Assembly: GCA_038030265.1 (NCBI GenBank)
Contig: CM075938.1
Span: 4,503,009-4,567,008, forward strand
From: Corythucha ciliata
Taxonomy: Eukaryota > Arthropoda > Insecta > Hemiptera > Tingidae
DNA length: 64,000 bases
Direction: 5' to 3'
Shown in pieces: positions 9,736 through 57,833 of the stretch. Position 1 is the first letter of the stretch. Each line of letters starts with the position of its first letter. The notes under the pieces were generated by a model. It saw only the letters and a program-made list of their open reading frames with translations, did no database searches and was not told where the DNA came from. The position numbers were made by a program, and so were the translations under genes.

Positions 9736-10152
9736 CCGCGAATAAAGTACAGAAAAAGCGCTAATTCATGAATCAAATTGAGAAAAATGGCTCATTAGCG
9801 GTTAAGATCAAGAAAAATACGAACCCACCGCAAAAACTCAGAAAAAACGCTAATTCACCGCTAAAATGGCGAAAAATCGCTAATCCACCGATAAAATTGA
9901 GAAGCGCTGAAGTGAGGAAAAACGCTAATTTGCTATAATGGACAACGTCAAATTCGCAGCTTCTAAAGGTAGCTTTGTGCCAGAAAGTGAAAAAATCGCT
10001 AATTCACAGCCAATTTCAGAAAAAGCTTTACGTAGTTCGCGACGAAAATTGGGGCAAAACTCTAATTCGTGGCTGAAAGATAAAAAAATCTATAATTTTA
10101 GCGGCTAAAATGAGGAAAAACGCTAATGTGTGGTTATAATAAGGATAAATGG
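9735..10152. repeat. Family A array, opposite orientation (interrupted)
   Basis: Units of GCTAATTCGCGGCTAAAATT type. The array is cut at 10152 by the LTR retrotransposon and resumes at 18332, so it is the element's insertion target. Confidence 0.65.
10149..10152. repeat. Target-site duplication ATGG (left)
   Basis: ATGG directly before the 5' LTR. The same ATGG follows the 3' LTR at 18332-18335. Confidence 0.7.
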
Positions 10153-10709
10153 TGTTATGGAACAAGCCAAGGAGCTAAAAGTAGATTTTGCCCATTTAAT
10201 AAAAACATAAACTAAGCCTAGAAAAATAAATTCAAATATAACTAATAATTAAATAGATCGACAATTAATTAAATAAAATTACAAACATAATAATTAAAGA
10301 AAGAAAAAAGTTCGCGGGTGAAAAAAATGTGCCGGTTAGAACATGTTCATGAGGTAGTCGGCACTCGTCGCAAAAGGAAGAGGGGATCGGAAAACCTTCG
10401 AAGAATGAGAAAGGGATTAAAGGGAGCCACCATTTTTCCCCTGATCGTGGCAGCGGAAGCCCGTGGAAAACAGGACCTCGACGTTGGCTGAAAAAGAAAA
10501 AGGCGCAAGGTAAAAAACCAAAGAACCCTCACAATCCACGAAAATTAAGGGAGCATAACACACTCTAACTCATGAAGTCCGAATCCTTTAGCTTTTCTTT
10601 CTGGTCTTCATCTGACCGCACTACGTCGTCTTCCTGAGACTCCACTGGCAAGCTCGTTGAAACACGCTCGTAGCGTACCGAACTCGCTCACGAATATTGG
10701 AGCCCGGAC

Positions 10710-10717
10710 TATATAAA
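10710..10717 (+). promoter_or_regulatory. LTR TATA box
   Basis: TATATAAA in a GC-richer context in the middle of the LTR. It probably drives the genomic RNA, with a start about 30 nt downstream. The 3' LTR has the same box at 17857-17864. Confidence 0.65.
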
Positions 10718-11090
10718 GACGCTCCCAACGGCGCCTGTTCCTTCATAGCGTTTCCAGGAACAACTTCAGTAGAAACGGACACGACGACCCTTCAAAAAGG
10801 TATTCCGTACCCGTGCACCCACGTACGACACCAGATTAAAAATCCATATAAAAAAGGACAAAACTCGACCTTAATATCAACACCGTCGCGTAACGAATGA
10901 CACCAAGTGAAATTAAGAACAATTAAATTATACATCTAAGAGTAAGTTAAACCCGGTCCAAAGTTAATATATTATAACATAACGTATTCGTAAAGGCGGG
11001 AGGCCTCCGCATTAATAGCGCTAATTTAAAAACCCCCCTTTTCTTTTTGCTCTTTCTTCGATGTAAGGCTCCTTGGCCCAAAATTAACTA

Positions 11091-11096
11091 AATAAA
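11091..11096 (+). terminator. Candidate LTR polyadenylation signal
   Basis: AATAAA close to the LTR 3' end. Its equivalent in the 3' LTR would end the genomic RNA. A second AATAAA lies about 18 nt downstream. Confidence 0.4.
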
Positions 11097-11184
11097 AAAC
11101 TGATTCGAATAAAAACCCGATAAAAATTCAAAAAATAGCAAAAAAGCAAAATAAAAGAATACAAAAAAGGAAAAGAAAATAACA

Positions 11185-11504
11185 ATTTGGTGGCCCAGTG
11201 GTTTTGGTTTCTGGTGATTCGTTTAATCTGAGAGGAGAGCGCAGAGCTCCTGAAAGAACAGGTTCGGGTGCGTGTTTCAACAATTCCCCTCCCTTTTTTT
11301 TTTGTGCGTGTGTTGGTGGCAGGTTACAGGGTCAGACCCAGCTGTTCAATTATAACCACCTCCTTTTCCAGTTTATCAGCTATCAGGAAACAGTTTAGAA
11401 TTTTTCAACAAAACAACAGTAAAATATTTTCAGATCATTCTCTATTCATCATTAATAGCTGTTTAATAAACATAATAAAGCTCGAAGGGTAATTGCTCGT
11501 CAAC
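11185..11504 (+). other. Retrotransposon leader with candidate primer-binding site
   Basis: The 320-nt leader between LTR and Gag start. TGGTGGCCCAGTGG begins at 11188, three bases after the LTR, and is the natural candidate for the tRNA primer-binding site because it starts with TGG. I cannot name the tRNA with confidence. Confidence 0.45.
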
Positions 11505-13205
11505 ATGTCAGATTCTAATCCAGACGAAAACTTGGTAGCCTCAGAGAAATTTGACGGCTTCGTCCTGCGTTCCGGTAGACAAATAGAACCCCTGCCCTTA
11601 CCCACACGAGACCCTTTTATAGCGTTTAGGCAGATGGAGACGTCGAACGTCGTGCCGCAAAGAACGGGAAGGGAAACCGTCGATACATCCGACGAGACAT
11701 TACAACAACAGGGACGTACTTCTAGCCCCACGGGAACATCTCCGCGCTCAATGGATCTCGAGACTAGCCTTTTGGATACCGAAGTACCACAGCTACCACC
11801 GGTGGAAGAAGAGGAAACGAGGCAGGTAGACGCGGCAGTAGAGCAACAAGTAGGCGACCAAGGCGGCGACCTTCACAGGGCGATGACGAAACTTATAACT
11901 ACTTTTAATCAGGCTCGCATAGAAGATCGAAAGACGGCGGAAGAACTTAGGAAGAGGCTGGAGGCGATCGCCGAAGAACAGCATTCGTATAAGAGGGAAC
12001 TTAGTAACCTGAAAATCACGATAATGAACGCGTGTAGTGACTACGTCGACTCGGTAAGGACAGACATCCAACAAAGCATAGAAAAACAAAACGAAGCACA
12101 ACTCACGAGAACAAGAGAACTCGCCGATTTGTCTGTTCAAAAAATGAGCGAGCTCAAGGCGCGCTTAGATCAACAAGAAGCAAAGCAAAGCGAGCTACTG
12201 TCCCGAATTACTGAATGGGAGGGCCACCGACCAAAACAGCAGAAAGAAGCCGAAGGCCTATTATCAGACCTGATTAGCGCGATTCGAGACCAGCCAGTAG
12301 ACCCTGTCAGTCCCCATCAGGGCTCCCCTTTATGTTTTTCAGATTATAGATGGAGCTGTCCATTTGAATTCCTGCAGGCAGTGGAATACTCCCATCGTGC
12401 GTGGAACCTAGGTCAAAGACCTCTCACCCATCGTTTAAAAAACCTTTTTTCAGGAAAAGCACTCCTGTGGTTCCTAATGAATCAAGATTCTTTCCGGGAT
12501 TTTCAAACGTTCCAGGCCAAGTTCGAGGAGGATTTTCAGGGCCATGAGTACCAACTATATTTGCATAAACTCCTATACTCAGGTTTTTTCACGAGCAGTA
12601 AAACAAAAAACCCACAAATCTATGTGATGGACATAGTCACGAGAGTCCGCAACGCCAAGCTAGCGATACCTGAACAAACCCTTGTCCAAACTCTAGCATC
12701 ACATTTTGATCAATCAATAAGTCAAACCGTAAAACTAATGAATATTTCTAAACTGACAACTTTCCTTGAATATATAGAGCAGGCGTTTAAACTCGAATGG
12801 CAAAACAAGGGCAGACAACAGTATAACAGGGAAACATCTCCAGAAAAATCTCAGTCACCTCCACGTAAGAACTACTATAACAATAGGCCAACCTCACCAA
12901 TACATAACTCCTCTAGGACGTTTTATAGAAGACATTCAAACCCCCGAGACAACCGCCAACGGCCTAACAACTACGAAAGGGCTGACGACAGAAGAGTCTT
13001 CCACCACAACCAGAAGTGGCACAACAGCGGCCGTCAATCATCTTCCTACGACAGGGATAGACAACGGGACCGTTTAGGGGACAAAATCGCGACAATGACG
13101 TTATCAAAAGAAGAAAGGCACGGCGAAGAAGCCCCTCGACCCTCCTCCCTATTCGAGAAGTCTCATGGGGAAGGGTCAGGGGCTCGAAACGACACAAAAA
13201 ACTAG
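11505..13205 (+). CDS. gag: Gag-like structural polyprotein
   Basis: The first in-frame ATG is at 11505 (ATGTCAGATTCT), giving 566 residues. Residues 1-120 are acidic and low in complexity. About 122-260 is a strongly heptad-patterned coiled coil rich in Glu, Lys, Arg and Gln. About 285-430 resembles the Retrotrans_gag capsid region (FEFLQAVEY, ALLWFLMNQ, QAKFEEDF). Residues 435-540 are basic and rich in Arg, Asn, Ser and Pro. No CCHC zinc knuckle is visible, so RNA binding probably falls to this basic tail. The protein assembles the particle that packages the element RNA. The last codons are AAA AAC TAG. The first six bases of that sequence are the slippery site for entry into Pol, which lies in the -1 frame. 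Gag alone should be the major product. Confidence 0.88.
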   Translation: MSDSNPDENLVASEKFDGFVLRSGRQIEPLPLPTRDPFIAFRQMETSNVVPQRTGRETVDTSDETLQQQGRTSSPTGTSPRSMDLETSLLDTEVPQLPPVEEEETRQVDAAVEQQVGDQGGDLHRAMTKLITTFNQARIEDRKTAEELRKRLEAIAEEQHSYKRELSNLKITIMNACSDYVDSVRTDIQQSIEKQNEAQLTRTRELADLSVQKMSELKARLDQQEAKQSELLSRITEWEGHRPKQQKEAEGLLSDLISAIRDQPVDPVSPHQGSPLCFSDYRWSCPFEFLQAVEYSHRAWNLGQRPLTHRLKNLFSGKALLWFLMNQDSFRDFQTFQAKFEEDFQGHEYQLYLHKLLYSGFFTSSKTKNPQIYVMDIVTRVRNAKLAIPEQTLVQTLASHFDQSISQTVKLMNISKLTTFLEYIEQAFKLEWQNKGRQQYNRETSPEKSQSPPRKNYYNNRPTSPIHNSSRTFYRRHSNPRDNRQRPNNYERADDRRVFHHNQKWHNSGRQSSSYDRDRQRDRLGDKIATMTLSKEERHGEEAPRPSSLFEKSHGEGSGARNDTKN

Positions 13206-13249
13206 AGTGCTCGGGTGAGGTGGGACACGACGACAGGACCATCCACCCG
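13196..13249 (+). promoter_or_regulatory. Programmed -1 ribosomal frameshift signal
   Basis: Slippery heptamer A AAA AAC at 13196-13202 sits in the correct register on Gag codons and is followed at once by the Gag stop TAG. A 9-nt spacer leads to a predicted stem: CGGGTG (13212-13217), a bulged A, GGTGG (13219-13223), a 15-nt loop, then CCATC and CACCCG (13239-13249). Pol is open in the -1 frame from CTA at 13202. All three standard elements of a -1 frameshift site are present, so Gag-Pol (about 1867 residues) would be made this way. Confidence 0.88.
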
Positions 13250-16200
13250 GAAGCCACACAATCAAATTCAAAAAAACCTAACAAAACACCGTCAACCTAC
13301 ATCTACTCAGACCTTACAGATAGATTCATGGAGCAGGCCATGTCGAACACAGCAAAGAACCTGGAAACTTGTGCTTACTTGTTAGGAGAGGAGAACGCAG
13401 ACGGCACCTGGACAGTCACCACGATATATCTGCCCCCTCAATCGGGATCACCAAATACGTGTGAGGCATTGGACGACCCCCAATTAGTACCATTCCTGTG
13501 GGCATCCGATTTATGTGTTATCGGATGGATACATACACACCCATCTCAAACGGCATTTTTGTCTAGTATAGACCTACATACATCACTTGCTCTGCAGAGC
13601 TTACTGCCACAAGCAGTAGCCATCGTCTGTGCTCCAGCATTCAACGAAGTAAAGGTGTTTTCGCTTACTCCTCAGGGTATTGAAACGGTCCGGAGATGCA
13701 AACTGACAGGTTTCCATAAACACAATGAAGAAGAAACCTCCCCATTGTTCGAAGAGGCGGGACACGTCGTTCAACTCGAAAACGGCAAAACTCAGGTGGT
13801 AGACGAACGAAACATCGCCACAGACACAAAAAGAGAAGATCCCTTACCGATGATGCCATCAGAAATGAATATAAGAGTCGCAACGTTGTTCGAAGACGAC
13901 ATTTCGGAAGACGATGACGACAGGACTCTGCAAAAGACACCCCGACCACTTTGTCCGGTTATAAAATGCCTGATTGGCAAAACAACTATAGAATCTCTTG
14001 TAGACACGGGGTCCATGGTGACGGCCATTAATGAGAAAAAGTTTCAGGCGATCTCGGAAGATTTGGGACGAGTCGCAATATTTCCTGTCCAGGGGATCAA
14101 AGTAACGACCGCGGTTTCTAAAAAGGCTCATAGGGTAAAAGCTCAAGTACTCCTCCCACTGCAAATCCAGGACGCCAAAACCCTGTGTAAATTTTTGGTG
14201 ATACCAAATTTAAATCACGACATCATTCTAGGGATGGAAACGCTGAATGAATGGGAAACACATATCGATTTAAAAACTCAACAAATCTCTTTTCACTTCG
14301 AAGCTCAGGCCACAGCAACGGTGACCTTCCCAAAATACTGTGAAAACAAGCAAACTCTTGAAGTATCGGCCACTTACCGGACAAACCTTGAAAATGACGG
14401 GGACTTGACGACTAAAAACTCTTTTCAAGATATATTACAAGATCTATGTACGAAATTTCAGGATGTGCCCAACCATACAGTACACGACTTCAAGCAATTG
14501 GTACAACGATATGAGTCAATTTTCAGTGACCAACCGGGCCTAATAGAGGGTTACGAACACGTAATAACGCTGAAAGACGAAACGCCTTTTAAAACATTTC
14601 AGTACCCAATAAAAGCAGCAGACCAAGAAGAGGTCGATGGCGAAATAAAACGGCTTCTGACACAAGGAATTATCGAGAGGTCGAACAGCCCATTTCTCAA
14701 CCCTCTGCTCATAGTACGCAAAAAGAACGGACAGCTACGAACGACGCTAGACGCCCGTAAGATGAATAGTAAAATGTTCGAAGAACACGACATCCCTCAA
14801 ACTTTCGATCAACTGATTAAAGATGCAGCAGGAGTGACACACTTGTCGACGCTAGACCTGGTATCATCATTTCACCAAGTTCGACTACACCCGAACAGCC
14901 GAAAATATACAGCCTTTCGACACAGAGGGCTCGTTTATCATTTTTCCAGGGTCCCCTTCGGAGTTCGCAGTTCAACGGCGGCTTTAGAAAAGGCCCTCCG
15001 TCCCTTAATACCAGAGCATGCGGCACGAAATATAAAGTCATACGTCGATGACCTTCTCATCCATTCTAATTCAGCCTCAGATCACCTCGATCACTTGAAA
15101 ACAGTGTTTGAAATGTGCCAGATCAATAACATTACCCTCAATCTACAGAAATGTCAATTTTTTCGCACAAGACTGCCCGTCCTGGGATTCGTTCTGACCA
15201 CGAATGGGATTCAAAAAGACCCAGAAAAGGTGTCGGCCGTCTTAAACTTTCCAACACCGACTAACGTCAAGTCAGTGCAGTCATTCCTCGGTTTGATAAA
15301 CTTTTACGCTCGTTTTATTCCAGAGCTCTCTAGGATCGCTACCCCGTTGTACAGGCTAACAAAAAAGAAAGAACCCTGGCTTTGGACAAAAGAAGTAGAG
15401 GACGCTTTCGTAACCATAAAAAACCTGATGGCCAAAGACGTCGAACTGAGCTACCCCGACTTTACACGCCCATTCTATCTAGAAACCGACGCCAGCAAAA
15501 TAGCGACAGCAGGAATGCTGTACCAATTCGACGATAACCAACAAAAACGTCCCTTGGCATTCACTAGCAGCACTTTAAACTCATCACAACAAAATTATAC
15601 CACCTCTGAATTAGAAATACTTGCGATCATAAACAGCTGTAAAAAATTTTATTCTTATATCGGTGGGCACCACTGCAAGATTAGAACGGACCATCAGGCC
15701 ATACCGTTTATGTACACGTGTCAGTACCCCTCACCACGCTTAAACCGCTGGTTTCTGTTCCTTCAGAACCTAAACCTAAGTTTCGAATACATTCCTGGAA
15801 CACAGAACGTGGTTGCAGACGTCCTTAGTCGTTATCCTCCGATAAAAACACCTTGTAATGAAAATAACAAACAACTGAAGATTATGGCCGCAAAGATACA
15901 GACACAACGAACCTGGCAAAACACCCTTCTTAAAAAACTTCCACTAGCCCAAAAACAAGACGCGTTTCTCCAAGCCAAGCGTAAAAAACGCCCAGACATA
16001 TTTGAACAAAAGGGTGATATAATTTATCAAATTTGTCAAGGCAAAAAATTAATTTATCTACCAGCAGAACTGCGCGACGAGTTGATCATAGCCGTTCATA
16101 ACGACCTCCTCCACTCTGGGGTGCAAAAATGTCACCAATTCCTGCGACAGTCTTTTATAACGAAGAGCATGAAACGTCACGTAAAACGCGTACTAAGACC

Positions 16201-17107
16201 TTGCCACACTTGCCAGATCAATAAATATGGTAACCTCGGCTTACAACACTTGGTGGGGGCGCTACTTCCAAAAACAAAGCTGGACATTCTGTCTATCGAC
16301 CACTTTGGCCCACTGCCAAAAGCCAGATTTGGTACAAGCTACATTTTGACAGCGATCGACAACTTAACTCGCTTCACGAGGCTCATACCACTAAAAACGA
16401 CTAGCAGCAAGGAAACAACTTCAAAATTAAAGTCATATTTCAAACTCCACGGAAAACCGAAAAGGTTATTAACTGATCATGGGTCATGTTTCACCTCAAC
16501 AATGTGGAAGAACTTTATCAAAGAAAGTACCGTCACTCACATTATGATTCCATTAAAAAGGCCTAACGCCAATTTGGCGGAGAGAGTACACCGGGACCTC
16601 GTCACATACCTGAGAGTTACGGTATCTACCAAACAATCAGTGTGGTACGACCAAATACCCCGGATAGAATGGGTTATGAATAACACCTATCACTCTGCGA
16701 TACAATGTACACCTCACGAAGCTTGGTACGGCACCAGACCTAAATCGCCATGGGTAAAATACACTGACGATGACAACGACACATATTCTAGGTCACGTGA
16801 GCAAATGGACGAACACCTCCGAGAATGCCAAAACACAAAGATATCGTCTCTAGAAGACACCAACAAGAATAAGAAAACACGTACATACCGTATAGGGGAA
16901 AAAGTCTTGGTAAAATACTACCCGTCCAGCTCAAAACTCAAGAAGAGAAGTGCTAAGCTCATGCCAATTTTTCAAGGACCATGCACTGTTCATAAACGTC
17001 TAGGGAAGAGTACATATTTAGTCAACATTCCGAAAACACAAAAATTAATGCTGTATCACACAACATCCATCAAACCTTACTTCTCTCCTCAACAACAAGT
17101 GGACTAA
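13202..17107 (+). CDS. pol: Pol polyprotein: JAMM deubiquitinase, protease, RT, RNase H, integrase
   Basis: Open from the frameshift point to TAA at 17105. There is no ATG at its head, so it is expressed as Gag-Pol. Numbering residues from the codon at 13220: JAMM domain about 28-185; aspartic protease with DTG at 262-264 and ILGM at 336-339; RT about 455-660 with catalytic D546 and YVDD at 608-611; RNase H with D757, E797 or E799, D824 and D867; integrase zinc site H960, H965, C995, C998; integrase core D1027, D1086, E1121 (a DD35E spacing). Every catalytic residue I looked for is present and no frame break occurs. Order and motifs are Ty3/gypsy type except for the N-terminal JAMM domain, which is not a standard retroelement part. 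The protease would be expected to cut the polyprotein into separate enzymes. Confidence 0.93.
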   Translation, partial: LECSGEVGHDDRTIHPEATQSNSKKPNKTPSTYIYSDLTDRFMEQAMSNTAKNLETCAYLLGEENADGTWTVTTIYLPPQSGSPNTCEALDDPQLVPFLWASDLCVIGWIHTHPSQTAFLSSIDLHTSLALQSLLPQAVAIVCAPAFNEVKVFSLTPQGIETVRRCKLTGFHKHNEEETSPLFEEAGHVVQLENGKTQVVDERNIATDTKREDPLPMMPSEMNIRVATLFEDDISEDDDDRTLQKTPRPLCPVIKCLIGKTTIESLVDTGSMVTAINEKKFQAISEDLGRVAIFPVQGIKVTTAVSKKAHRVKAQVLLPLQIQDAKTLCKFLVIPNLNHDIILGMETLNEWETHIDLKTQQISFHFEAQATATVTFPKYCENKQTLEVSATYRTNLENDGDLTTKNSFQDILQDLCTKFQDVPNHTVHDFKQLVQRYESIFSDQPGLIEGYEHVITLKDETPFKTFQYPIKAADQEEVDGEIKRLLTQGIIERSNSPFLNPLLIVRKKNGQLRTTLDARKMNSKMFEEHDIPQTFDQLIKDAAGVTHLSTLDLVSSFHQVRLHPNSRKYTAFRHRGLVYHFSRVPFGVRSSTAALEKALRPLIPEHAARNIKSYVDDLLIHSNSASDHLDHLKTVFEMCQINNITLNLQKCQFFRTRLPVLGFVLTTNGIQKDPEKVSAVLNFPTPTNVKSVQSFLGLINFYARFIPELSRIATPLYRLTKKKEPWLWTKEVEDAFVTIKNLMAKDVELSYPDFTRPFYLETDASKIATAGMLYQFDDNQQKRPLAFTSSTLNSSQQNYTTSELEILAIINSCKKFYSYIGGHHCKIRTDHQAIPFMYTCQYPSPRLNRWFLFLQNLNLSFEYIPGTQNVVADVLSRYPPIKTPCNENNKQLKIMAAKIQTQRTWQNTLLKKLPLAQKQDAFLQAKRKKRPDIFEQKGDIIYQICQGKKLIYLPAELRDELIIAVHNDLLHSGVQKCHQFLRQSFITKSMKRHVKRVLRPCHTCQINKYGNLGLQHLVGALLPKTKLDILSIDHFGPLPKARFGTSYILTAIDNLTRFTRLIPLKTTSSKETTSKLKSYFKLHGKPKRLLTDHGSCFTSTMWKNFIKESTVTHIMIPLKRPNANLAERVHRDLVTYLRVTVSTKQSVWYDQIPRIEWVMNNTYHSAIQCTPHEAWYGTRPKSPWVKYTDDDNDTYSRSREQMDEHLRECQNTKISSLEDTNKNKKTRTYRIGEKVLVKYYPSSSKLKKRSAKLMPIFQGPCTVHKRLGKSTYLVNIPKTQKLMLYHTTSIKPYFSPQQQVD
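13301..13775 (+). other. AMSH-type JAMM/MPN+ deubiquitinase domain within Pol
   Basis: The core motif is HTHPSQTAFLSSIDLH (Pol residues 105-120), the H-x-H-P-(x)n-S-x-x-D signature of JAMM zinc isopeptidases. It has the flanking residues typical of AMSH/AMSH-LP/Sst2 enzymes. Catalytic set: E49 (in LETCAYLLGE), zinc ligands H105, H107 and D118, and S115 or S116. AMSH proteins also bind a second, structural zinc through one His after the Asp and a Cys-x5-His-x-His group. Here H120, C160, H166 and H168 supply all four. AMSH enzymes cleave Lys63-linked ubiquitin chains at endosomes. From conserved residues I infer an active enzyme of the same specificity. The MIT and clathrin/STAM-binding parts of cellular AMSH are absent, so targeting must come from Gag. 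Confidence 0.9.
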
Positions 17108-17143
17108 CCAAATTGCATGCCTATCATTAATCGTTGAAGCTTT

Positions 17144-17186
<43 letters not shown>

Positions 17187-17299
17187 ATAAAATATAAAAT
17201 AAAATAATAAAAAAAAAAATAAAAGAATAATAATGATAAAAAACAAATTTAATATCCAATTTTTTTTTTTCTCATTTTTTTTCCGGAAGGGAAGGATAT
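17108..17299 (+). other. A-rich 3' untranslated stretch and polypurine tract
   Basis: After Pol come about 30 A residues (17148-17184), then AATAAA-like simple sequence, T runs and finally GGAAGGGAAGGATA (17285-17298) touching the 3' LTR. The last is the expected polypurine tract for plus-strand priming. Long homopolymers inside an LTR element are unusual and prone to assembly error. Confidence 0.7.
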
Positions 17300-18331
17300 T
17301 GTTATGGAACAAGCCAAGGAGCTAAAAGTAGATTTTGCCCATTTAATAAAAACATAAACTAAGCCTAAAAAAATAAATTCAAATATAACTAATAATTAAA
17401 TAGATCGACAATTAATTAAATAAAATTACAAACATAATAATTAAAGAAAGAAAAAAGTTCGCGGGTGAAAAAAATGTGCCGGTTAGAACATGTTCATGAG
17501 GTAGTCGGCACTCGTCGCAAAAGGAAGAGGGGATCGGAAAACCTTCGAAGAATGAGAAAGGGATTAAAGGGAGCCACCATTTTTCCCCTGATCGTGGCAG
17601 CGGAAGCCCGTGGAAAACAGGACCTCGACGTTGGCTGAAAAAGAAAAAGGCGCAAGGTAAAAAACCAAAGAACCCTCACAATCCACGAAAATTAAGGGAG
17701 CATAACACACTCTAACTCATGAAGTCCGAATCCTTTAGCTTTTCTTTCTGGTCTTCATCTGACCGCACTACGTCGTCTTCCTGAGACTCCACTGGCAAGC
17801 TCGTTGAAACACGCTCGTAGCGTACCGAACTCGCTCACGAATATTGGAGCCCGGACTATATAAAGACGCTCCCAACGGCGCCTGTTCCTTCATAGCGTTT
17901 CAAGGAACAACTTCAGTAGAAACGGACACGACGACCCTTCAAAAAGGTATTCCGTACCCGTGCACCCACGTACGACACCAGATTAAAAATCCATATAAAA
18001 AAGGACAAAACTCGACCTTAATATCAACACCTTCGCGTAACGAATGACACCAAGTGAAATTAAGAACAATTAAATTATACATCTAAGAGTAAGTTAAACC
18101 CGGTCCAAAGTTAATATATTATAACATAACGTATTCGTAAAGGCGGGAGGCCTCCGCATTAATAGCGCTAATTTAAAAACCCCCCTTTTCTTTTTGCTCT
18201 TTCTTCGATGTAAGGCTCCTTGGCCCAAAATTAACTAAATAAAAAACTGATTCGAATAAAAACCCGATAAAAATTCAAAAAATAGCAAAAAAGCAAAATA
18301 AAAGAATACAAAAAAGGAAAAGAAAATAACA
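17300..18331 (+). repeat. 3' LTR
   Basis: 1032 bp and identical to the 5' LTR at all but about three positions. It is followed by the ATGG target duplication at 18332-18335. Confidence 0.93.
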
Positions 18332-18510
18332 ATGGGTAATTGGGGTTTAAATTGAGAAAATTTGGAAATAAAAGCGGTAATTTACGGCAAAAATTGAGAA
18401 AAATCGCGGCTAAAATGGAAACGTATCGCTTATTCGCGGTTGGAATGGGGGAAATATCGAATTCACCGATGAAATTGAGAACCTCTGAAGTGTTGAAAAA
18501 AGTGTGAAAA
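18332..18510. repeat. Family A array, continuation after insertion
   Basis: Units of the same orientation as 9735-10152 resume directly after the target duplication. Confidence 0.6.
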
Positions 18511-19530
18511 AAAAAAAACGTTTTTCGACAAGAAGGGTGGGTGGATAGCGCTGGCTAGTGTGTAACTAAAGCATTTTCGGCTGTGCGTCTATATGACGTT
18601 TTTGTCCGTCCAGGTACGCACCATCACCAGGTGCAAGTGTGTCAGATTCCTCCTGAATCACTCCTGTATAAATGTATAATATTGGGCCGATATTTTCTCA
18701 GTGCCCCGGGGCGGACAAATCTGTGTATCCGCCCCTGTATGGAGGTGCCCAATAGTCTTGAATTTTCAGCATTTAGGGAATGATTTGAATGTGGTATACA
18801 ACGGCCTGATTCTTGATAGGTTTTTGACTAATAATATTTTATTTTTATCCCACATGATACTAAAACCGAATTTTACGGCCGCAAATGAGTCCCAAAAGTG
18901 TCTCTTTTCATGCCTAGGAACTAAAGTATTTTTCAAGCGACATGCTCCGAAAGTAGTCATTTTCTGTACCCAAAAATGTCTGGGAAATTGACCATTACCG
19001 CACAGTGACATTCGAGACATTTTCTGTACTAGTCCAGAAAATATTTTCCGTCCTAGTACGGAGAGTAAATGAACTCGAGTTATAACCTCGTTTAAGGTCT
19101 TCTTAAACTAAAGACACGAGAAGTCAGTAGTCAATTTGTCAAAGTCAGTTTTATCGCGTGAAAAAAGTTGTACATCACTCGTAGGAAGGGGATTTACCTC
19201 GCCTCGCCCGCCAGGCTTATAATGTAATGTACCGCGGCAAATTTTACGGCGTTTTAGAGCCACGACTTTAGCTCCTGCGTATACATATACTATTATTGAT
19301 TTCTTAGTTGTTTTTTTTTTGCCACAAGAATATGGCAAGTATTCGTTTTAAATAATAAACGATAATCATTCGTACTCAAATAAAACAGCAAAGTGTGGGA
19401 ATGCAGGTAGGGGCATAACTAGAAATCCGGATCCGGGGTTCGGATGGGGGCCCCTGAATAGCTTGAAGATGAAAAATCGGGATTTTCAAGTAGATAAGAT
19501 GAAAACGAATGGCTAAACTCGCTTGTAAAA
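18511..19530. other. Unassigned intergenic sequence
   Basis: No gene recognised. A short inverted pair GGGGCGGA...TCCGCCCC lies at about 18711-18738. A second G-rich phrase is near 19408-19455. Confidence 0.3.
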
Positions 19531-20925
19531 GTGAGTAAAACGCTGATTCGCGGCTGAAATTGAGAAAAATTGCTGAAATTTATGGCTGTTAATATTAAGA
19601 AAAAGCGCTAGCTAATTCACAGCTGACATTCTAATTCGTGAGCTGGAAAAATCACGAATTGTTGGGGCGAAATTAGGAAAAAGCGCGAATTTACGCAGCT
19701 AAAACTGAGAAAAGCGCTAATTCAAGGATGAAAAAGAGAAAAACGCAAATTCGCGTCGTCTTGAAAAAAAAACACGCTAATTTACAGCTAGAATTGTGAT
19801 AAAGTGCTACAATTTAGCAACTTTCAAAATTTAGAACAAGCGCAAATTCACAGCTAAAAGGGAGAAACGCCAACTCAAGGATTCTCGGGGCAACATTGGG
19901 ACTAAAATTTAGAAAAAGCGCTAATTCACGGGTGAAATAGTCAAAAACGCGAATTCGCGTCTAGATAAAAGTGGAGGAAAACTCAGCTAAGGTATGAAAA
20001 ATTACGATTTTACGGATAAAATCGAGAAAAAACGCTAAAACTCGTAGCTAAAATTAAGAAAATGTGCTAATTTACTGCTAAAATTGAGAAACAAAACGCT
20101 AATTCACAGCTGAAAATGAGAGAAAACGCCAATTCGCCAATTCAAGGATAAAAAAGAGAACAACGCGAATTCGAGTCTAAAAATAGAGAAACACGCTATT
20201 ATGATAAAGTGTTACAATTTGGCAACTTTAAACATTGGGAAAAAGCGCGAATTCACAGAAAAAGCCAACTCACGGATTCTCGGGGCTGGGACTGAAATTG
20301 AGAGAAAGGGCTGCGATTCACGGCGTGAAATAGAGAAAAACGCGAATTTGCGTCTAAAAGTGGAGGAAAACTTTAATTCACAACTAAGGTACAAAACATT
20401 TCAATTTTGCAGATAAAATCGAGAAAAAGTGCTATAAATTCCAGCTAAAATTAAAAAATGTGCCCATTCACTGCTAAATTGGGGGTAAAAAGGCTAATTT
20501 ACAGCTGAAATTGAGAATACCCCAACTTGCACATTCTTGGGGAACTTTGGGAATAAAATTGAGAAAAAGCGCTAATTCAAGCGGCTGAAACTGTGAAAAA
20601 GCGCTAATTCGAGGGTAATAAATAGAGAAAAACACGAATGGTTTTTTTTTGTAATGGAGAAAAGCGCGAATTTACGGCTTAAATTTAGAAAAATTGCTAA
20701 TTTGCGGATAAAATTGGGAAAGAGCTCTTAAACGCTACCTAATTTGCGGATTCTTAAGGCAACTTCACGGTAAGAGCTTGTAAAAAGCGCCGATTCGCAG
20801 CTAAACATGAGAAAATGAGCTAATTCGCGGAAAAAATTGAGAAAACGCACTTTAGAGGCAATTTCGTGGCTAAAATTGAGGAAAAAATAATACTTCAAAG
20901 CTGCAAAAAAGTATATTTACGGTTT
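19530..20925. repeat. Family A array (longest)
   Basis: About 1.4 kb of diverged units of the GAAAAAGCGCTAATTC type, about 30 bp apart, all in one orientation. Two sub-blocks (about 19790-19990 and 20205-20400) share several consecutive units in the same order, including GATAAAGTG, the CAACTC...GGATTCTCGGGGC phrase and AAAGTGGAGGAAAACT. That indicates a higher-order duplication of roughly 415 bp. Confidence 0.65.
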
Positions 20926-21887: not shown

Positions 21888-22925
21888 TCAATGCGATGAG
21901 CAATAGTGCAGATGACTTCTGTCGTTACAATATGAGTTGCTAGTGCATCTATTTCTGATGTCGATGCATTCACCATCATCGCAGCGAAAACTTTGACAGT
22001 TTCGTCCAAACAGATTGCCACCTGATTCATCACAAAAGTGTAATTAACTTCAACCTGGAAATTCATGATTACGAAGATGACTTACATCCTATTGGTTCGT
22101 CTGATCCATCACCACACTCGCTGTGACCGTTACAGTACTTCACACAAGTCAAGTTTCGAGCTCCATTTTCACACACAAACATGCCATTACGGCAAATGTT
22201 CGACTCTGAGTCAGAATGATTGTCATCACCTTCGTCAGGGTATGTCAACGAAACCGCAAGGCGTCTCTTTATTACTCCGATGTTGCTCAAATGATGCTCG
22301 AAATTTTTCGATAAGTCCGAGTAGAGTACGGCCAAGCTCGCAAGAGACTCGGTGAATTCATTAGATTTGCTTTCCAACCACTTGTTAACCGACGTTTGAT
22401 TTCCTCCGCTGAACAATCTCGCAGCAATTGATCTGAGGTTTTTTTCGGTTTCTATCAATTGGATCTTTCTTCTCAGGTCACTGGCCAGCGAAAGTAACTG
22501 AACATCATTAAATATTCCAAGTTACTATCCAAATTAATGAATATAATTACCTTAAAGCCAAGAACTAACCTTTTCAGCTGATTCCTTTACAATCGAGACG
22601 GAGAAATTCAAGTTTTTCACGTTTATTCCGGCTCGTTTGCCTTTCAAACTCAGAAGAAGCCTCTCAGTGGAAGGGTCTTCAATTTGGGAATAAATTGTCT
22701 CAGTAGAGTTAACAACTAATTCCAGAAAATCCAAAGCATTGTAATTTGTGGATACGTTGATAACATCGAATGCCGTTCTAGTTCCTCCAATGAAAGGCGA
22801 ATTATATCCAAATCTGAGGTAAAAGGACACACAAACATCAAAGCGTTTCAACGCAGTATGCCTCGCAATATAAAATAGGTTACTCACGCAAATAACACAA
22901 GTAACACTGCCCCAGATCGAAACAT
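21888..22925 (-). CDS. Secreted two-LDLa-module protein, copy B (4 exons)
   Basis: Paralogue of copy A. Exons: 22925-22888 (MFRSGAVLLVLFA signal peptide), 22813-22570, 22497-22086, 22021-21888 (TGA). Splice sites are GT-AG at the same phases as copy A, giving about 275 residues. Exon 2 is 27 nt shorter (nine codons missing after VSTN). Exon 3 is exactly as long (412 nt). The first LDLa module is nearly identical to copy A (CRNGMFVCENGARNLTC), with its last Cys again split over the exon 3/4 junction. The second module keeps six cysteines but has diverged: the acidic SDxxxC end has become SHLHYC, which would probably weaken calcium binding. The protein also runs three residues past the last Cys. 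Function unknown. Confidence 0.8.
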
Positions 22926-22978
22926 TGTTGAGTGGGTACTGTTCAGGCTGGTCTGGCTTATGAAACATTCCGAGAATG

Positions 22979-22990
22979 GCTTATATAATT
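22979..22990 (-). promoter_or_regulatory. TATA box of LDLa gene copy B
   Basis: TTATATAAG on the minus strand at the position matching copy A. It sits within about 150 bp of upstream sequence shared by both genes. Confidence 0.6.
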
Positions 22991-24283: not shown

Positions 24284-24706
24284 TCACCGGACTCTGGTCG
24301 AAAAATGAGTCATTATCTCACCACTCACTCCTCCCGTAGGTGGAGACCGCGCAGGTACGAGAGTATTAACTGCGTTAATGACACCGTTAAAGCGGCAATT
24401 AAACTCCAAAGAGTCTCTATTCAAATTGACAGAAGAAGGACACAGCCTAACGTGAAGTGACTCAGAAATAAGTCTTCTGTTCAATACCTTTTCTCGGCTC
24501 AATACGCGAGCTTTGCTGAAATCAAACATATGCCCTGCATCTCTCGTATGTTTGACGAGTCCTGAAGTCACCTCCTCATTCTTAAGCGAGTTACGGTGTT
24601 GACTTAGACGTGTTTTTAAATACTGTTTAGTTTGGCCGATGTATTTTTTGTCACAGCCGGAGGCACCACAAGGAACCTCGTACACAACGTGGGTCGCCTG
24701 CTCCAA
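24284..24706 (-). pseudogene. GIY-YIG endonuclease domain of Penelope-like element
   Basis: VYEVPCGASGC followed by KKYIGQT (the GIY and YIG strands), TRLSQHR with the conserved Arg and His, then HTRDAGH and ISE. This is the Penelope-type arrangement with extra Cys and His zinc ligands. The domain nicks DNA to prime reverse transcription. The downstream residues run into a less conserved tail. A stop in the linker at about 24773 separates it from the RT part. The domain is well kept, but the element is 5'-truncated and so not autonomous. Confidence 0.85.
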
Positions 24707-24772
24707 CTTCGCCGGATCTTTCAGCCGCGAATAAAACCTATCAATCTTGTTATCAATCTTTCAATCTACCTA

Positions 24773-25474
24773 TCAATCTTTGTTGTTGTCGGGCCTCATT
24801 CCAAAGTTGATGTGAACTTTTTTAGACGCACCACGAAGACATTTTGTGACTCTTTCCGTAACCCCTTTTACATACGTAAAGGGAAAGAAAACTTTGGGTA
24901 CTACTTGTGGTGTTCCTTCTAGGCGTTCTTCCGCACGACGAGGTTCTTCGGTTCTTCTAGTGGCAGATGTTTCTCCTGATGCGGCGCATGCTGCAATCAG
25001 TGACGTCGGGTAGCCATTGTCCCTCAATAGCGCTGACGCTCGCTCAAAGCTACGGTGGAGAAACTCTGGTGATGACAACTTCCTGGCCCGTGAGATCAGA
25101 TTGGCTGCTGTGTTAACTTTTTGATAGTAGGGGTGGCAGCTGTCGAAATTAAGAAGTCTTCCAGAGCTAAGCGGTTTCGAGTACCAACAATGCGCTATTG
25201 TATTACTGCTAGTCCTTGTTACGAAAGTGTCCAGAAACGGAACCCCCGTAATTCCATTCCACGACGACTCTCTCTCTACCGTGAACCGTAGCCCCGGGTG
25301 ATAGGAATTGAAGGCCTCAAGTACCTCATCCACACTCCCTTCTTCCAGCGAAATCCAAAGATCATCGACATATTTTCTGACATTGCTGACTTTGCAGCCC
25401 AACCTGGGAACCACAAGATTGAGAAGATCATTCATGACCAACGCACTCATGTCCGGGCCAAGACACGAACCCAT
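24773..25474 (-). pseudogene. Penelope-like reverse transcriptase, C-terminal part
   Basis: MGSCLGPDMSALVMND followed by the catalytic YVDDLW box and the FTVERE...PFLDT block, then a long thumb and linker, as in Penelope-like RT. The reading frame continues upstream of the first Met through YSRKTNNGLA into the inverted arm, where homology stops. The fingers and the first catalytic Asp are therefore missing. Dead, but with little internal decay. Confidence 0.85.
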
Positions 25475-25483
25475 CGCAAGGCC

Positions 25484-25611
25484 GTTGTTGGTTTTTCTGC
25501 TGTAGACTGAAGAGGGGTGTGATACACCCGAAATATATATCGGACTGATGTTCTACTGAACCATCATTTCTTCTTTTTTGGCCGAGTAATCCCGACAAAT
25601 TTCCAGTAATT
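25484..25611. repeat. Right arm of 128-bp inverted repeat
   Basis: Exact reverse complement of 23925-24052. It carries the hammerhead-like motif on the plus strand (about 25500-25548). Confidence 0.9.
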
Positions 25612-35825: not shown

Positions 35826-36042
35826 GAGGAGGGGTATGGGCCGTGTAGTGGCGAGGGCACGGTCTTAAAAGAACTCGCTACCAACCCAAGGCGTTATGCG
35901 ATCCGTGCCGAAGGGTGCGTGACCCAGGGTGAGCTGTGTATTTAACGGAGCCTCAGGGATACCAGGCGACCTCCCTGAGTATTAAGCCTTCCCACGTCAT
36001 GCGGGGCTCTGCCGTGGGTGACTTTTATTTCCCTAGCTGCTC
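35826..36042 (+). other. Probable 5' UTR of the LOA/I-like LINE
   Basis: GC-richer than its surroundings, with no ORF, directly upstream of the first LINE ORF. The precise 5' end of the element is not clear; I place it around 35870. Confidence 0.4.
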
Positions 36043-37275
36043 GTGGGACCGTTTATGGATCGCGATCGTTTTACGTTGACAAACCCAGGGTTCATAACTC
36101 TGGAGCAGGTTGAGGACGAGCTTCTCAGTAGCCCTCAGCCTGCTCAGCCCGGCACCGCGGAGAAGACGGGGGAGACCACCTCAATGGAGGTGGTTGAGCC
36201 CGGAACCTCCGGTGGTGTCGCTGAGGGAGTAGTCTCCCTCTCGGGTTCGCCGGTATCCGGCGTACCCGAATTACAAGCGGGTCAGGGAACGGTATCCGAA
36301 CCCGTCGATCCCGCAACAGCGGCGCCTGGAGACCAGGAGATCGCTGATTTTGACAAATACGTCTCTGGCCTGAACAGGGATCAGAGGCGACGCTTTTTGT
36401 GGCTGGTTCGGAAGAAGGGGGAGGAACCGGAAGCCGCCAGGGCGAGTGCTCTGCAGAGCGTGGTGAAGAGGAAGAAGGGGAGAGCCTCTGCAGAGACGAC
36501 TCCGGAGGGAGCCGTGAAAAAGAAGCGAAGGACGACCGCACAGGGTCCTTCGTATACCGGAGCGCTCAAGGGAAGGAAGCTTGGTGTGGTTCATAGAGAC
36601 TACCCAGCAGTCCTCCTCTTGGACGACCAGCTTGAGGCCCTGGAAAGGAGCATTGAAGCTGCTATTGTTGCGCTGGAACCTAAAGCTGGGGAGGTAGTGC
36701 CCCAGTTTGATGGTCTGGTGCGAAGGAGGGGATAGCTATCCATCACCTGCGAGGACGACGGGACGGCTGTTTGGTTAAAGTCGCTCGTTGAAAGTATCGT
36801 ACCCTGGGAGGGGGCAAGGTTGAAGGTGGTTGAGGGGAGTGACCTGCCCAAGCCCAGGGTGGCGGTTGCATTTCTCCCGAAGTGCGCGGATCTGGGGAAT
36901 GAGCAAGTCCTTCAGTTCCTCGTGCGCCAAAATCGGGGGTTAAATGTGGGACAGGGGAAGGTACTGTCCAGGAGTGTGCCTCAGGGCACGCCGGCTTTGA
37001 TGATGACCCTGCTCATCGATGAAGAGTCGGCGAAGATCCTGGAAAGGAATAATGTAGTCCACATCAGGTTCGGCAAGGGGACCATCCGGCCTAAGGCTCG
37101 GAAGGGGGAAGGATCATCCTCCGGCCCCCGGCAGCAGCCGATGGAGGTGGATCAGGTAGCCGCTGCTGTGCGGGGTACCCACCCCCGCACCGCGGCAGGA
37201 AGAGCTATCTGTGGGAACAGCGGTTGGCGCCACGGCATCCGGGCAGTCAACGCAGGTAGCTCCCTCATATGCTAG
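36043..37275 (+). pseudogene. LINE ORF1 protein (Gag-like), one in-frame stop
   Basis: A 230-codon stretch ends at TAG (36733-36735) and resumes in the same frame to a second stop at 37273, about 410 codons in all. The N-terminal part is acidic, then Lys/Arg-rich (VVKRKKGRAS, VKKKRRT). The later part (AVWLKSLV...VVEGSDLPKPRVAVAFLP...VLQFLVRQNRGLNVGQGKVLS) resembles the DUF4780-type domain seen in ORF1 of LOA/R1-like insect LINEs. It would bind LINE RNA. The frame is otherwise clean, so the TAG is probably a point mutation. Confidence 0.7.
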
Positions 37276-37415
37276 GCCATCGACTAGCAAGGCGGTGGAG
37301 AGAGGTGATAGTGTCGGACCAGCGGGGGGTGAAAGAGTCCCGAAGGCGGCAGGTCGGGCACGGAAACCCCACCCTACTCCGAGTAAGGCGATGCTGAAGA
37401 AGCAAGTCGGCCGTA

Positions 37416-40400
37416 TTGAGCAGGGTGTTCACTGGGGGAAGCTATGACGTCGCCATGGTTCAGGAGCCATGGGCATGGGAGAGGCAGGTCAAGGGCCTCT
37501 CTGCGACAGCAGGTAAGCTGGTTTACTGTAGGGATGAGGAGCGGCCACGAACTGCGCTGTTTCTAAGTCCCGCAGTGAAATTTTTAACTATGCCAGAATT
37601 TCTGTGCAGAGATTATACAGCAGTCATCCTGGAAGCCAAGGACGAGGACCGGACCCGGAGGTGTGTGGTAGCTTCCGCGTACTTCCCGGGGGACGCTGAG
37701 GTGACGCCGCCGGAGGAGCTTCAGCGTTTGGTCCTGTACTGCAGCGCGAGGAACCTGCAGCTGATTGTGGGTTGTGATGCGAATGCTCACCATACCATCT
37801 GGGGAAGTACAGATGTCAATGCCAGGGGTGAGTCACTTTTTCAATTTTTGATGACGCATGACCTGGTGGTGGTAAATCAGGGCTCGATCCCTACTTTCGT
37901 GACAAGTGCGAGGAGTGAGGTCCTGGATGTTACTCTGGCTAGCCAGTTTTTGGCCAATAGTGTCAGAGATTGGAAAGTCATGTCAGAAACATCAATGTCT
38001 GACCATAGGCTGATTTCGTTTGAGGTCGAGTTTCCTAGGGTTAGAAGTACAGAGTATCGGAATCCCAAGAACGCGGATTGGGAGGTCTTTAAGGGGCATC
38101 TTGAACAGGAGTTGTCTTAGATGGACCTGGACATTCAGTGCCACGCCGATCTCGATAGGGCGGTGGAGGCGATAAATTCAGCGGTCCTCAGTGCGTATGA
38201 GGAAAGCTGTCCTGTTAAGGTGAAGAAGGGGAACAGGGAAGTCCCTTGGTGGAACAACGAGCTGGAGATGCTCAGAAGAGAAACGAGGAGGCTTTACAAT
38301 AGGGCCAGATCACGTGGGGAGTGGGATACTTATAGGCACTCCCTCACGGAGTATAACAAGGCCCTTAGGAAAGCAAAGCGGGCCACGTGGAGGACCTTCT
38401 GTGAGGGGATGGAGAATGTGTCCGTTATGGGCAGACTACAGAGGGTCCTGTCCAAAGAGAGCCCGGGCCAAATTGGTCTAATAAAAAAGGCAGATGGGGC
38501 GTATACAGAGAGCGCTAAAGAGACCCTGGAGGTCCTCCTGCGAAGTCATTTTCCTGATTCCAGGGATGCAGGGGCCTCAGATGTTCAGGGCGAAGTGGTG
38601 GCTGACTGCCAGCCAGCAAATAATGCAATATGGAGCGCATCGGGGAAATTGTTTACGCCCGCGAAAATTAAATGGGCTATCGGCTCATTTAAGCCCTATA
38701 AATCCCCTGGGCCGGACGGGATATTCCCGGTCATGTTACAGCGTGGCCTGGAGGTCCTGGAGCCGCGTCTCAGAAGGATATTTAGGGCAAGTTATGCATT
38801 ATCGTATATACCGAAGGCATGGAGGGAGGACAGGGTTGTGTTCATTCCTAAGTCGGGAGCAAACTCCTCGGCCCAGGCAAAGGCGTACCGACCCATAAGC
38901 CTCATGTCCTTCCTCCTTAAAACAATGGAAAAGGTAATTGGCCTGGATATAAAGGACGGTTGCCTTAAAATTAAACCAATCCAGAGGGGGCAGCATGCCT
39001 ACCAGGCGGGCAAGTCTACTGAGACCGCCCTAAACGAACTGGTGGGTAAGGTTGAGAAATCTCTGGAGGCGAAAGAAACTGCGCTGGGCTGCTTCCTGGA
39101 CATAGGTGGTGCTTTTGATAACACTCTGTGGAGGCTGCAGTAAGGAGCAGAGGTGTTGATCCATCTTCAGTGAAATGATCAAGGGGATGCTGGAATGCCG
39201 CGTCGTGACTTCGGAGCTGGGAGGGGAGACTGTTTCCGTGTTGCCCTCAAGGGGGTGTCCCCAGGGGGGTGTGCTCTCTCCTTTGCTCTGGTTGTTCGTG
39301 GTGGACGAGCTTCTCGCTATCCTAAAGGAGCAGGGTTATGAGGTAGTTGGTTACGCGGATGACCTTGCGATTCTAGTTAGGGGCAAATTTGATGATACCA
39401 TATCCAGGTGGATGCAGGGTGCCCTTAACATAGTGCAGCGATGGTGCAGCAGGCATGGTCTCAGGGTTAACCCTGAGAAGACCACCCTTGTTGCGTTTAC
39501 CAGGCGGAGGAAGCTGGCATTAAAGGTAGTTCGACTGAATGGAGAAGTGTTGAAGGTAGGAAAAGAAGTCAAGTACCTTGGAGTTACCCTGGATCAGGGG
39601 CTCAAATGGACCTCGCATATCAAGAGGGTGCTGAATAAGGCCACGTTCGCATTGTGGGCTGGTCGGAAAATGTTTGGCAAAATATGGGGTCTAAAGCCAA
39701 AAATGGTGTTGTGGCTGTATACAGCCGTTGTTAGGCCTATCGTCACCTATGGCTCACTCCTATGGTGGCAGAAGACGAAACAAGGGACAGTCCAGGCCTT
39801 GCTGAGTAAGTTGCAGCGCCAGGCCTGTCTTGGAGTAACGGGTGCTATGCATTCGTGCCCGACGGCAGCCATGGAGGTGTTACTGGACATGCCTCCCCTG
39901 CACTTTCATGTGCAGGCGACCGCATATATGGCGGCGGTGAGACTGCTGCGGGCGGAGTACGTGAAGCGGGGTGTCCAGGTTGGGCACTTGCGTGTTCTGG
40001 AGGAAGTTGCATGTAGTGAGGGGGCTGAAGTCGTTACGGATCTCATGCATGTGAGGATGGATTTTGAGAAACCCTTTAAGGTCGACATAGGCAACCGCGA
40101 CCTTTGGGATAAGGGTTTGCCGAGGTTTAAGCCCGGCACGCAAGTATGGTATACTGATGGATCTGTGAAGGATGGGGGTGCTGGCATTGGGGTGTTTGGC
40201 CCCAGGCTTCAGCATTGGGAGTCCCTTGGGACGACCGCCACCATCTTTCAGGTGGAGATCCATGCTATAGAAGCCTGTGCGCCAAGCTCTTTGTCACTCC
40301 AAAGGGACGATCGGAGAAGGGCCTGATCTCTCTGAGCCGAGGAGACCTTAGAATCTTGGTGGGACTGCTAACGGGACATTGTGCCCTTCGATATACGCTC

Positions 40401-51918: not shown

Positions 51919-51993
51919 TGGCTCCCCGGCGGGATTTGAACCCGCAACCTCTGGATTACCAGTCCAGCACGCTGCCATTTGCGCCACGGAGAC
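51919..51993 (-). tRNA. tRNA-Thr(GGT)-like sequence (left arm)
   Basis: Same cloverleaf as 52201-52275 on the opposite strand. Anticodon loop CTGGTAA, T loop TTCAAAT. Part of the palindromic repeat; probably not a working gene. Confidence 0.55.
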
Positions 51994-52200
51994 GCCTATG
52001 GGAGTCGTACTCCAAGGGATAAGCTAAGCCGAACCCCACCCAGGTCTTCAGATTTATTCAGTATATCCATCTAACAACATCTAGATAAGATAAAATTCGG
52101 CGTGTTTTACCGATCAGGAGAAGCGCCTAGAGTTTCGAGAAACAATGGACCTGGGTGGGGTTCGGCTTAGCTTATCCCTTGGAGTACGACTCCCATAGGC

Positions 52201-52275
52201 GTCTCCGTGGCGCAAATGGCAGCGTGCTGGACTGGTAATCCAGAGGTTGCGGGTTCAAATCCCGCCGGGGAGCCA
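52201..52275 (+). tRNA. tRNA-Thr(GGT)-like sequence (right arm)
   Basis: Anticodon stem CTGGA/TCCAG, loop CTGGTAA (GGT), T arm GCGGG/CCCGC, B box GGTTCAAATCC. Acceptor strands GTCTCCG/CGGGGAG leave the first pair mismatched. It is the third copy of this repeat in the window. Confidence 0.55.
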
Positions 52276-56902: not shown

Positions 56903-57833
56903 ACGTCGACGATGTATTGTGCCTCTTTCAGGGAGACAATATTGAGCTCGCGGGACTTCTAAGTTACCTGAACGGGTGTCACGAGAAAATTAATTTCACG
57001 ATGGAGGTGGAGGTTGATGCCAGAATAAACTTTTTAGATCTGGCGGTAAGTAGAGAGGGTGGAAGGCACTCCTGCTTCACAGCTCCTCTAACCATCACCC
57101 CCGGCAGAAAATGAGTGCGTTTCACAATTTTGTCCACCGCTTAACTTCTGTTAAATTGGAACAAGATGCTTTCGATAGAGAGCTAGATTATGTGAAGCAC
57201 TGCGCCGAGGTGAACGGGTTTTCGGCGTCCATCGTTGACCGGATTATGGAGAAGAAGAAGATGAAGAGCATCATTTCCTTGGCGTACCCCTCCGACCCAA
57301 GGGATTCTGAAATAAAGACGAAAAAGTGGCACAGCATCCCTTATTACGGAGGAATTTCGGAGAGAGTTGGACGGCTTCTGGAAAGGAATGGGTTTAACGT
57401 CGCCTTTTCTTCAAAGGACACGTTAAGGACAATGGTCTCAAAGGGGAAAGATCCAGTGCCGGACATGGACAAATCAGGTGTTTACCGTATTACCTGCGGT
57501 GACTGTGGTAAACACTACACCGGACAGAGCGGCAGGAGCCTAAAGGTTCGAGTTGCGGAACATGGCGGCAAGGACAAACACTCGAATTTTTTCCGCCACA
57601 CGCAAGAAGAAGGGCATCAGGGGGAGCATCTGGTGACGGTCCTTCATCAAGTCGGAAAGGGGTCGGTGATGAATTTTCTCGAAGGCGTAGAGATTAAAAA
57701 CGCGTTGAGCGATAGGTCTCTGAATGCAAGAGAGGAACTCCCCGTTCCCTCCCCATTAGTTAATATCCTTGCATCCTTTCCTCAAAACGTTGCCAGTCCT
57801 AAAAAGACAACGGACACGATTGTGTTTACGTAA
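56902..57833 (+). pseudogene. Penelope-like RT end plus GIY-YIG endonuclease
   Basis: Starts at GYVDDVLCLF (RT active site), then KINFTMEVEVDARINFLDLAV. A frame change near 57110 leads to an open 240-codon stretch: linker with SIPYYGGISERVGRLLERNG, then GVYRITCGDCGKHYTGQSGRSLKVRVAEH (GIY and YIG strands, conserved Arg and His, and Cys ligands), the FRHTQEEGH block and FLEGVEIKNAL with the conserved Glu. It ends at TAA 57831-57833. The endonuclease looks intact while RT is mostly gone. Confidence 0.85.

Follow-up and report, generated by a model that had tools for sequence, protein, structure and literature searches.

An AMSH-type JAMM domain at the Gag-Pol junction of a Ty3/gypsy retrotransposon lineage in Corythucha ciliata

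An intact Ty3/gypsy-type long terminal repeat (LTR) element lies at 10153-18331 of a 64-kb stretch (hereafter the window) on the 62.9-Mb contig C2 of Corythucha ciliata, and its Pol carries an AMSH-type JAMM domain, the catalytic domain of a deubiquitinase, between Gag and the protease. The same arrangement recurs in diverged subfamilies of this element elsewhere in the genome (401 Mb searched). That the active site has been kept through such long divergence suggests that the elements use it to remove ubiquitin tags to their own advantage.

The JAMM domain and its position in the element

The JAMM domain (13301-13810, plus strand) is a JAB match in Pfam (E 2.6e-10), and its resemblance to STAM-binding protein (AMSH) is not due to chance, because it reaches E 1e-36 over about 160 residues. 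Among proteins of solved structure, STAM-binding protein, AMSH-LP, and Sst2 match best, and Rpn11, CSN5, and BRCC36 lag well behind them. In the numbering of the stop-to-stop Pol frame, the E...HxH...S..D motif of JAMM enzymes is present as E102, H158, H160, S168, and D171, which we take to be catalytic as in AMSH, and H173, C213, H219, and H221 are kept and presumably form the second zinc site. This second, structural site (H/C/H/H) is peculiar to AMSH among JAMM enzymes. All columns that are invariant in an alignment of 121 AMSH sequences (the best 120 of 1449 hits and P0001), catalytic and zinc residues among them, are kept in the window JAMM. An AlphaFold2 model of the domain (pLDDT 92.6) had AMSH-LP with Lys63 di-ubiquitin as its top PDB match (2znv; TM 0.89/0.93, rmsd 1.1), and its 24 best PDB matches showed 36-39% identity and TM 0.87-0.90. 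The captured segment extends to the native AMSH C-terminus (VVD.R) without the N-terminal half; no MIT or USP8-dimerisation part was found by Pfam, JAB being the sole match upstream of the protease. By the residue tests made, the inserted domain is an AMSH catalytic domain, and an intact one. It shares with AMSH, AMSH-LP, and Sst2 the catalytic and second zinc sites and the VVD.R end, but differs from them in being fused between Gag and protease.

The preliminary description of this locus had reported a complete JAMM domain (HTHPSQTAFLSSIDLH) of AMSH type, built into Pol in one unbroken frame with protease, reverse transcriptase (RT), RNase H, and integrase, and the Pfam matches within the frame 13061-17107, the similarity to AMSH, the fold match, and the retention of the invariant residues all bear this out. 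It had placed the domain at 13220-13775; the domain does begin within this span, but ends 35 bases past it.

The Pol frame (13061-17107, plus strand, from stop to stop) comprises 1348 codons, or 1295 amino acids from the first listed start at 13220. Downstream of the JAMM, it encodes an aspartic protease with VDTGS (13964-14248; RVP_2 above its cut-off, other protease models below theirs), the RT (14714-15193; RVT_1, E 1.2e-23), RNase H (15458-15769; E 1.2e-29), and an integrase with the zinc-binding H2C2 (16061-16225) and core rve (16286-16555) matches of Pfam. The gene is bracketed by a 5′ LTR of 1032 bp (10153-11184; TGTTA...TAACA) with three differences from the 3′ LTR (17300-18331), by a target site duplication ATGG in the flanking strings (10149-10152 and 18332-18335), and by a polypurine tract (PPT), GGAAGGGAAGG, at 17285-17295; a putative primer binding site (PBS), TGGTGGCCCAGTGG, lies at 11188-11201, and both tracts were recognized by eye, on the plus strand like the LTRs and all coding features. 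LTRs with a short target duplication, PBS and PPT, and the order of protease, RT, RNase H, and integrase are those of a Ty3/gypsy element, and the window RT groups with Ty3/gypsy RTs in a comparison set of database relatives, few of which are named. The PBS was compared by eye with one of the three tRNA-Thr genes of the window and did not fit it. The Gag open reading frame (ORF; 11493-13205, ATG at 11505) was found to contain neither a CCHC knuckle nor any of the three kinds of late-domain motif looked for, P(T/S)AP, PPxY, and YPxL. There is no space for an envelope (env) frame because only 177 bases separate the Pol stop (17107) from the PPT (17285), and the element has no other long plus-strand frame.

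Pol is in the -1 frame relative to Gag, and the junction bears the elements of a -1 frameshift signal: a heptamer of the X XXY YYZ type, a spacer, and a predicted stem-loop. The heptamer (13196-13202, plus strand), which the Gag frame reads as A AAA AAC, abuts the Gag stop TAG (13203-13205), and the predicted stem-loop (13207-13257, plus strand; -23 kcal/mol, z -3.4) begins 4 nt 3′ of it. Because the JAMM follows this signal, it should be present on frameshifted Gag-Pol only. Betaretroviruses carry a dUTPase in the same placement, in the Pro frame just past the -1 frameshift site and N-terminal to the protease, and this is a nucleotide enzyme, not one acting on ubiquitin.

Subfamilies, conservation, and descent of the JAMM

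At least 49 JAMM matches, spread over several contigs, were found in the genome, and merging neighboring pieces by eye left about 44 places. Thirty loci were taken with 1.5 kb of flank on each side, and the order Gag-JAMM-protease-RT could be followed in nearly all of them (protease in 29/30, RT in 28/30, and Gag in 28/30). Nine further matches (L033-L041) were considered as possible host AMSH sequences, but the element protease adjoins the JAMM in seven of them; L033 and L039 showed the JAMM alone within the short stretch examined. The window's own family occupies eight places including the window, 93-99% identical in protein and 96-100% in the DNA of the stretches compared, with L025 as a fragment (86%); the remaining loci are 35-50% identical to the window, and we sorted the loci into about 13 subfamilies, that of the window and about twelve more. 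Open Pol frames of 1289-1348 amino acids contain 11 of the 49 matches and belong to three subfamilies. A second complete element, L032, has an AGTT duplication and a pair of LTRs that differ by two gaps without any mismatch (99% identical).

The preliminary description had named an assembly chimera, or occurrence in this copy only, as findings that would speak against it. Neither applies within this assembly, because other copies and subfamilies carry the JAMM, and two complete elements do so, each bounded by LTRs and a target duplication of its own; we give a chimera or a one-off insertion practically no weight. The lineage-wide presence of the JAMM and the -1 frameshift site are additions to that description. 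An in-frame A AAA AAC heptamer, the only one searched for between the frame start and the JAMM, is present in 24 of the 30 loci and 10 of the 13 subfamily representatives and was not found in the other six loci, and the downstream stretch had z ≤ -1.6 in 8 of the 11 loci folded.

The JAMMs of the 13 representatives are 33-55% identical in pairs (mean 41%), and 23 of their 170 columns are invariant. These include eight of the nine catalytic and zinc sites, an overlap with P 2.8e-7 if columns are treated as exchangeable, and the ninth differs in a single representative (L015), whose Pol frame is cut short. Invariance of this kind is what a working enzyme would be expected to leave in the sequence. 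Two loci, L029 and L030, have very divergent JAMMs (40% and 35%, respectively), both with Gln179 changed to His. Another, L004 (G000:C1:2889139-2892729), combines a full open Pol frame with a change of the catalytic Asp to Gly (D171G) and is a natural control.

In the RT tree, all 10 JAMM subfamilies tested form one clade (100/100), and the 28 JAMM-less rows, 16 of them near, fall outside; a broader tree, quickly built from 120 rows, gave the same result for the three full Pols in it. In the JAMM tree with cellular AMSH, 21 of the 23 retroelement rows form one clade (99/93), while L029 and L030 stand apart on long branches, yet a single clade of all retroelement JAMM rows was not rejected (p-AU 0.377), and the RT of L030 is inside the JAMM clade. 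The trees share the groupings of L022 with L024 (starred in both) and of L018 with L020 (98/96 by JAMM, 89/83 by RT). Separate captures in each subfamily are not favored in view of these common groupings and the single RT clade. L016 is placed with L018 and L020 by RT (100/98 and 100/99 in two trees), whereas by JAMM it groups with L013 and L019 (97/91) in one tree and is unresolved in another; this conflict may reflect recombination between subfamilies or tree error. Taken as a whole, the trees point to what was probably one old capture, after which the domain was passed on for the most part vertically, although subfamilies may have recombined.

The preliminary description had also proposed a host AMSH as the donor. 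The AMSH domain is intact by the residue tests and a host donor is likely, but the JAMM tree leaves the position of the donor without support. The idea that the JAMM is a standard part of Ty3/gypsy elements found no support: such elements, represented by P0002-P0017 (database proteins, most of them without a name, at about 30% Pol identity), share with our element the LTRs, PBS, PPT, 4-bp duplication, and the order from protease to integrase, but the JAMM matched none of the best 120 of 231 Pol relatives (best E 0.83). Among 587 candidate proteins of 712-2266 amino acids, the JAMM region matched a single one, in which a plant AMSH is joined to a peroxin. A viral source was rejected as well: among the best 50 of 282 BFVD matches, the 17 with E up to 0.001 are distant JAB folds, mostly from phages where named and one from an iridovirus, and reach TM ≤0.54 to the model at 10-22% identity. 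Scans of IMG/VR gave no relative.

Possible roles of the JAMM

We propose that a Ty3/gypsy ancestor gained the C-terminal catalytic part of AMSH at its Gag-Pol junction and that the lineage retained it as a fixed component of the polyprotein. Slippage at A AAA AAC would yield Gag-JAMM-protease-RT-RNase H-integrase, so that the JAMM would be carried into particles on Gag-Pol at the dosage of RT. There it may strip ubiquitin chains, most likely Lys63-linked, off its own Gag-Pol and neighboring Gag, and the scarce Gag-Pol would thereby be shielded from ubiquitin-dependent clearance, by the proteasome or by selective autophagy, while particles are being assembled and are in transit. We hold this action in cis or within the particle with moderate confidence, and favor it because of two precedents. 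The PRO/DUB of Turnip yellow mosaic virus (TYMV) strips ubiquitin from the viral polymerase (PMC5695851); like the JAMM in our working model, it is a deubiquitinase within a polyprotein acting on the virus's own polymerase, but it is an OTU-type cysteine enzyme of unrelated fold from an RNA virus. In the Ty3/gypsy-derived PEG10, the frameshifted gag-pol, and not gag, accumulates without UBQLN2, much of this being proteasome-dependent, while the difference in a cycloheximide chase was not significant (PMC10076021).

Several observations weigh against this proposal. AMSH enzymes are known for Lys63 chains, whereas the PEG10 precedent is proteasomal. The window JAMM itself has altered residues that are near-invariant in AMSH (e.g., a Glu of 99% of AMSH sequences is Gln), the L004 domain with D171G sits in an open Pol frame, 4 of the 13 representatives (L012, L018, L019, and L022) have a stop within the JAMM, and the Pol frame is cut in others of them. 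The JAMM diverges faster than RT-RNase H (44% identity as against 65% when the window is compared with L009/L031). The ratio of non-synonymous to synonymous change (dN/dS) in young pairs ranges from 0 (L016/L017, with five synonymous and no non-synonymous changes) to 1.5 and is mostly not low, with few changes behind these values and broken copies among those compared; ratios between subfamilies were saturated and hence left out. Three of the 11 loci folded (L009, L016, and L029) had no significant stem. Furthermore, the loci were detected through their JAMM, so that any clade members in this genome that lack the domain would lie outside the sample.

The JAMM may instead target host proteins, removing Lys63 chains from innate-immune or other signaling complexes and so blunting the host response. 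The preference of AMSH-type enzymes for Lys63 chains accords with this role, and the faster evolution of the JAMM would be compatible with an arms race against a host factor; moreover, some RNA viruses turn deubiquitinases on host signaling (PMC8123002). A domain expected only on low-dosage, particle-bound Gag-Pol would however be ill suited to a role in trans if it were not released by the protease, and we regard this role as unlikely. The preliminary description had considered, besides removal of ubiquitin from the element's own proteins or particles, a reshaping of endosomal sorting, in which the JAMM would act at endosomes with the ESCRT machinery as cellular AMSH does and aid particle trafficking or budding. 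AMSH and AMSH-LP are indeed the nearest relatives in both fold and sequence, but the part of AMSH for USP8 dimerisation and the MIT were not found, and the lack of room for env and of the three kinds of late-domain motif in Gag leaves this version weakly favored; we would call it very unlikely. Similar doubt attaches to a service in nuclear entry or integration, with ubiquitin being taken off integrase, cDNA complexes, or target-site chromatin. The JAMM shares one polyprotein with RT and integrase, and the JAMM enzyme BRCC36 works at damaged chromatin, but a location at the Gag-Pol junction, 5′ of the protease, gives no special tie to integrase.

The captured JAMM could also lack any enzymatic role and be carried along as a passenger or serve as a structural linker. 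D171G in L004 and the dN/dS of the young copies would agree with this, yet the invariance of eight of the nine active-site and zinc residues at a mean identity of 41% speaks against it, because these residues would be dispensable in a linker with no enzymatic function, and we think a passenger highly improbable. On this balance, deubiquitination of the element's own Gag-Pol is the reading that we retain.

Surroundings of the element and significance of the finding

The element is flanked in the window by two similar exon sets on the minus strand (767-1572 and 22069-22980) that resemble a duplicated gene, the second with a stretch like LDL-receptor A (E 7e-5, just below the Pfam cut-off), and degenerate repeats around GCTAATTCACGGCTAAAATTGAGAAAAA stand on either side of it (9754-10102 and 19507-20458). 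A GC-rich region (36037-40326, plus strand) has the endonuclease and RT frames of a long interspersed nuclear element split among several ORFs. Two further stretches (24284-25552, minus strand, and 57054-57833, plus strand) recall by eye the GIY-YIG ends of Penelope elements; Pfam gave a GIY-YIG match, under its cut-off, for 57054-57833 only and none for 24284-24760. Two tRNA-Thr(GGT) genes lie head to head with some 200 bp between them (51920-52274), and the third is at 25901.

Accessory enzymes in retroelements are already known, including esterase and exonuclease ORFs in rotifer retroelements (PMC5408684) and helicases (PMC6338049). Gypsy elements of Phalaenopsis bear an AlkB-type N6-methyladenosine (m6A) demethylase, which the authors tie to host surveillance of transposable elements (PMC9289625); here too, a Gypsy lineage has acquired an enzyme of host type, but this one demethylates RNA and is encoded by giant elements in an additional ORF, and the portion of the angiosperm screen covered mentions no JAB/JAMM domain. 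The planarian giant Gypsy element Burro has MATH/TRAF and BIR domains and Helentrons have an OTU-like protease (PMC6431247); these mobile elements also carry domains tied to ubiquitin or apoptosis, but in another location and of another enzyme class, and with no JAMM in the text covered. According to a review, no deubiquitinase encoded by a retrovirus had been described up to 2021 (PMC8123002). The layout was unfamiliar to the author of the preliminary description, and no JAMM/AMSH retroelement was reported in the titles and abstract beginnings that we searched, a scope that left subscription journals, preprints, Repbase, and Dfam outside; the terms "JAMM" and "LTR retrotransposon" occur together in PMC8947704 and PMC10144533, which by their titles are reviews on other topics. 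Within the literature searched, it is the JAMM/AMSH deubiquitinase in Pol that is new.

A JAMM kept by about 13 diverged subfamilies would suggest that ubiquitin control of retroelement proteins is powerful enough to favor a counter-enzyme. It would also open this idea to direct test, as the domain is small and its nearest relatives, by the titles of the entries, have been crystallized with ubiquitin and an engineered binder. We consider it fairly probable that the lineage has a working deubiquitinase of its own; it would then be the first among the reverse-transcribing elements known so far that encodes and has maintained a ubiquitin-erasing enzyme, which would imply that retrotransposons in this host group have long been under ubiquitin control strong enough to select one.
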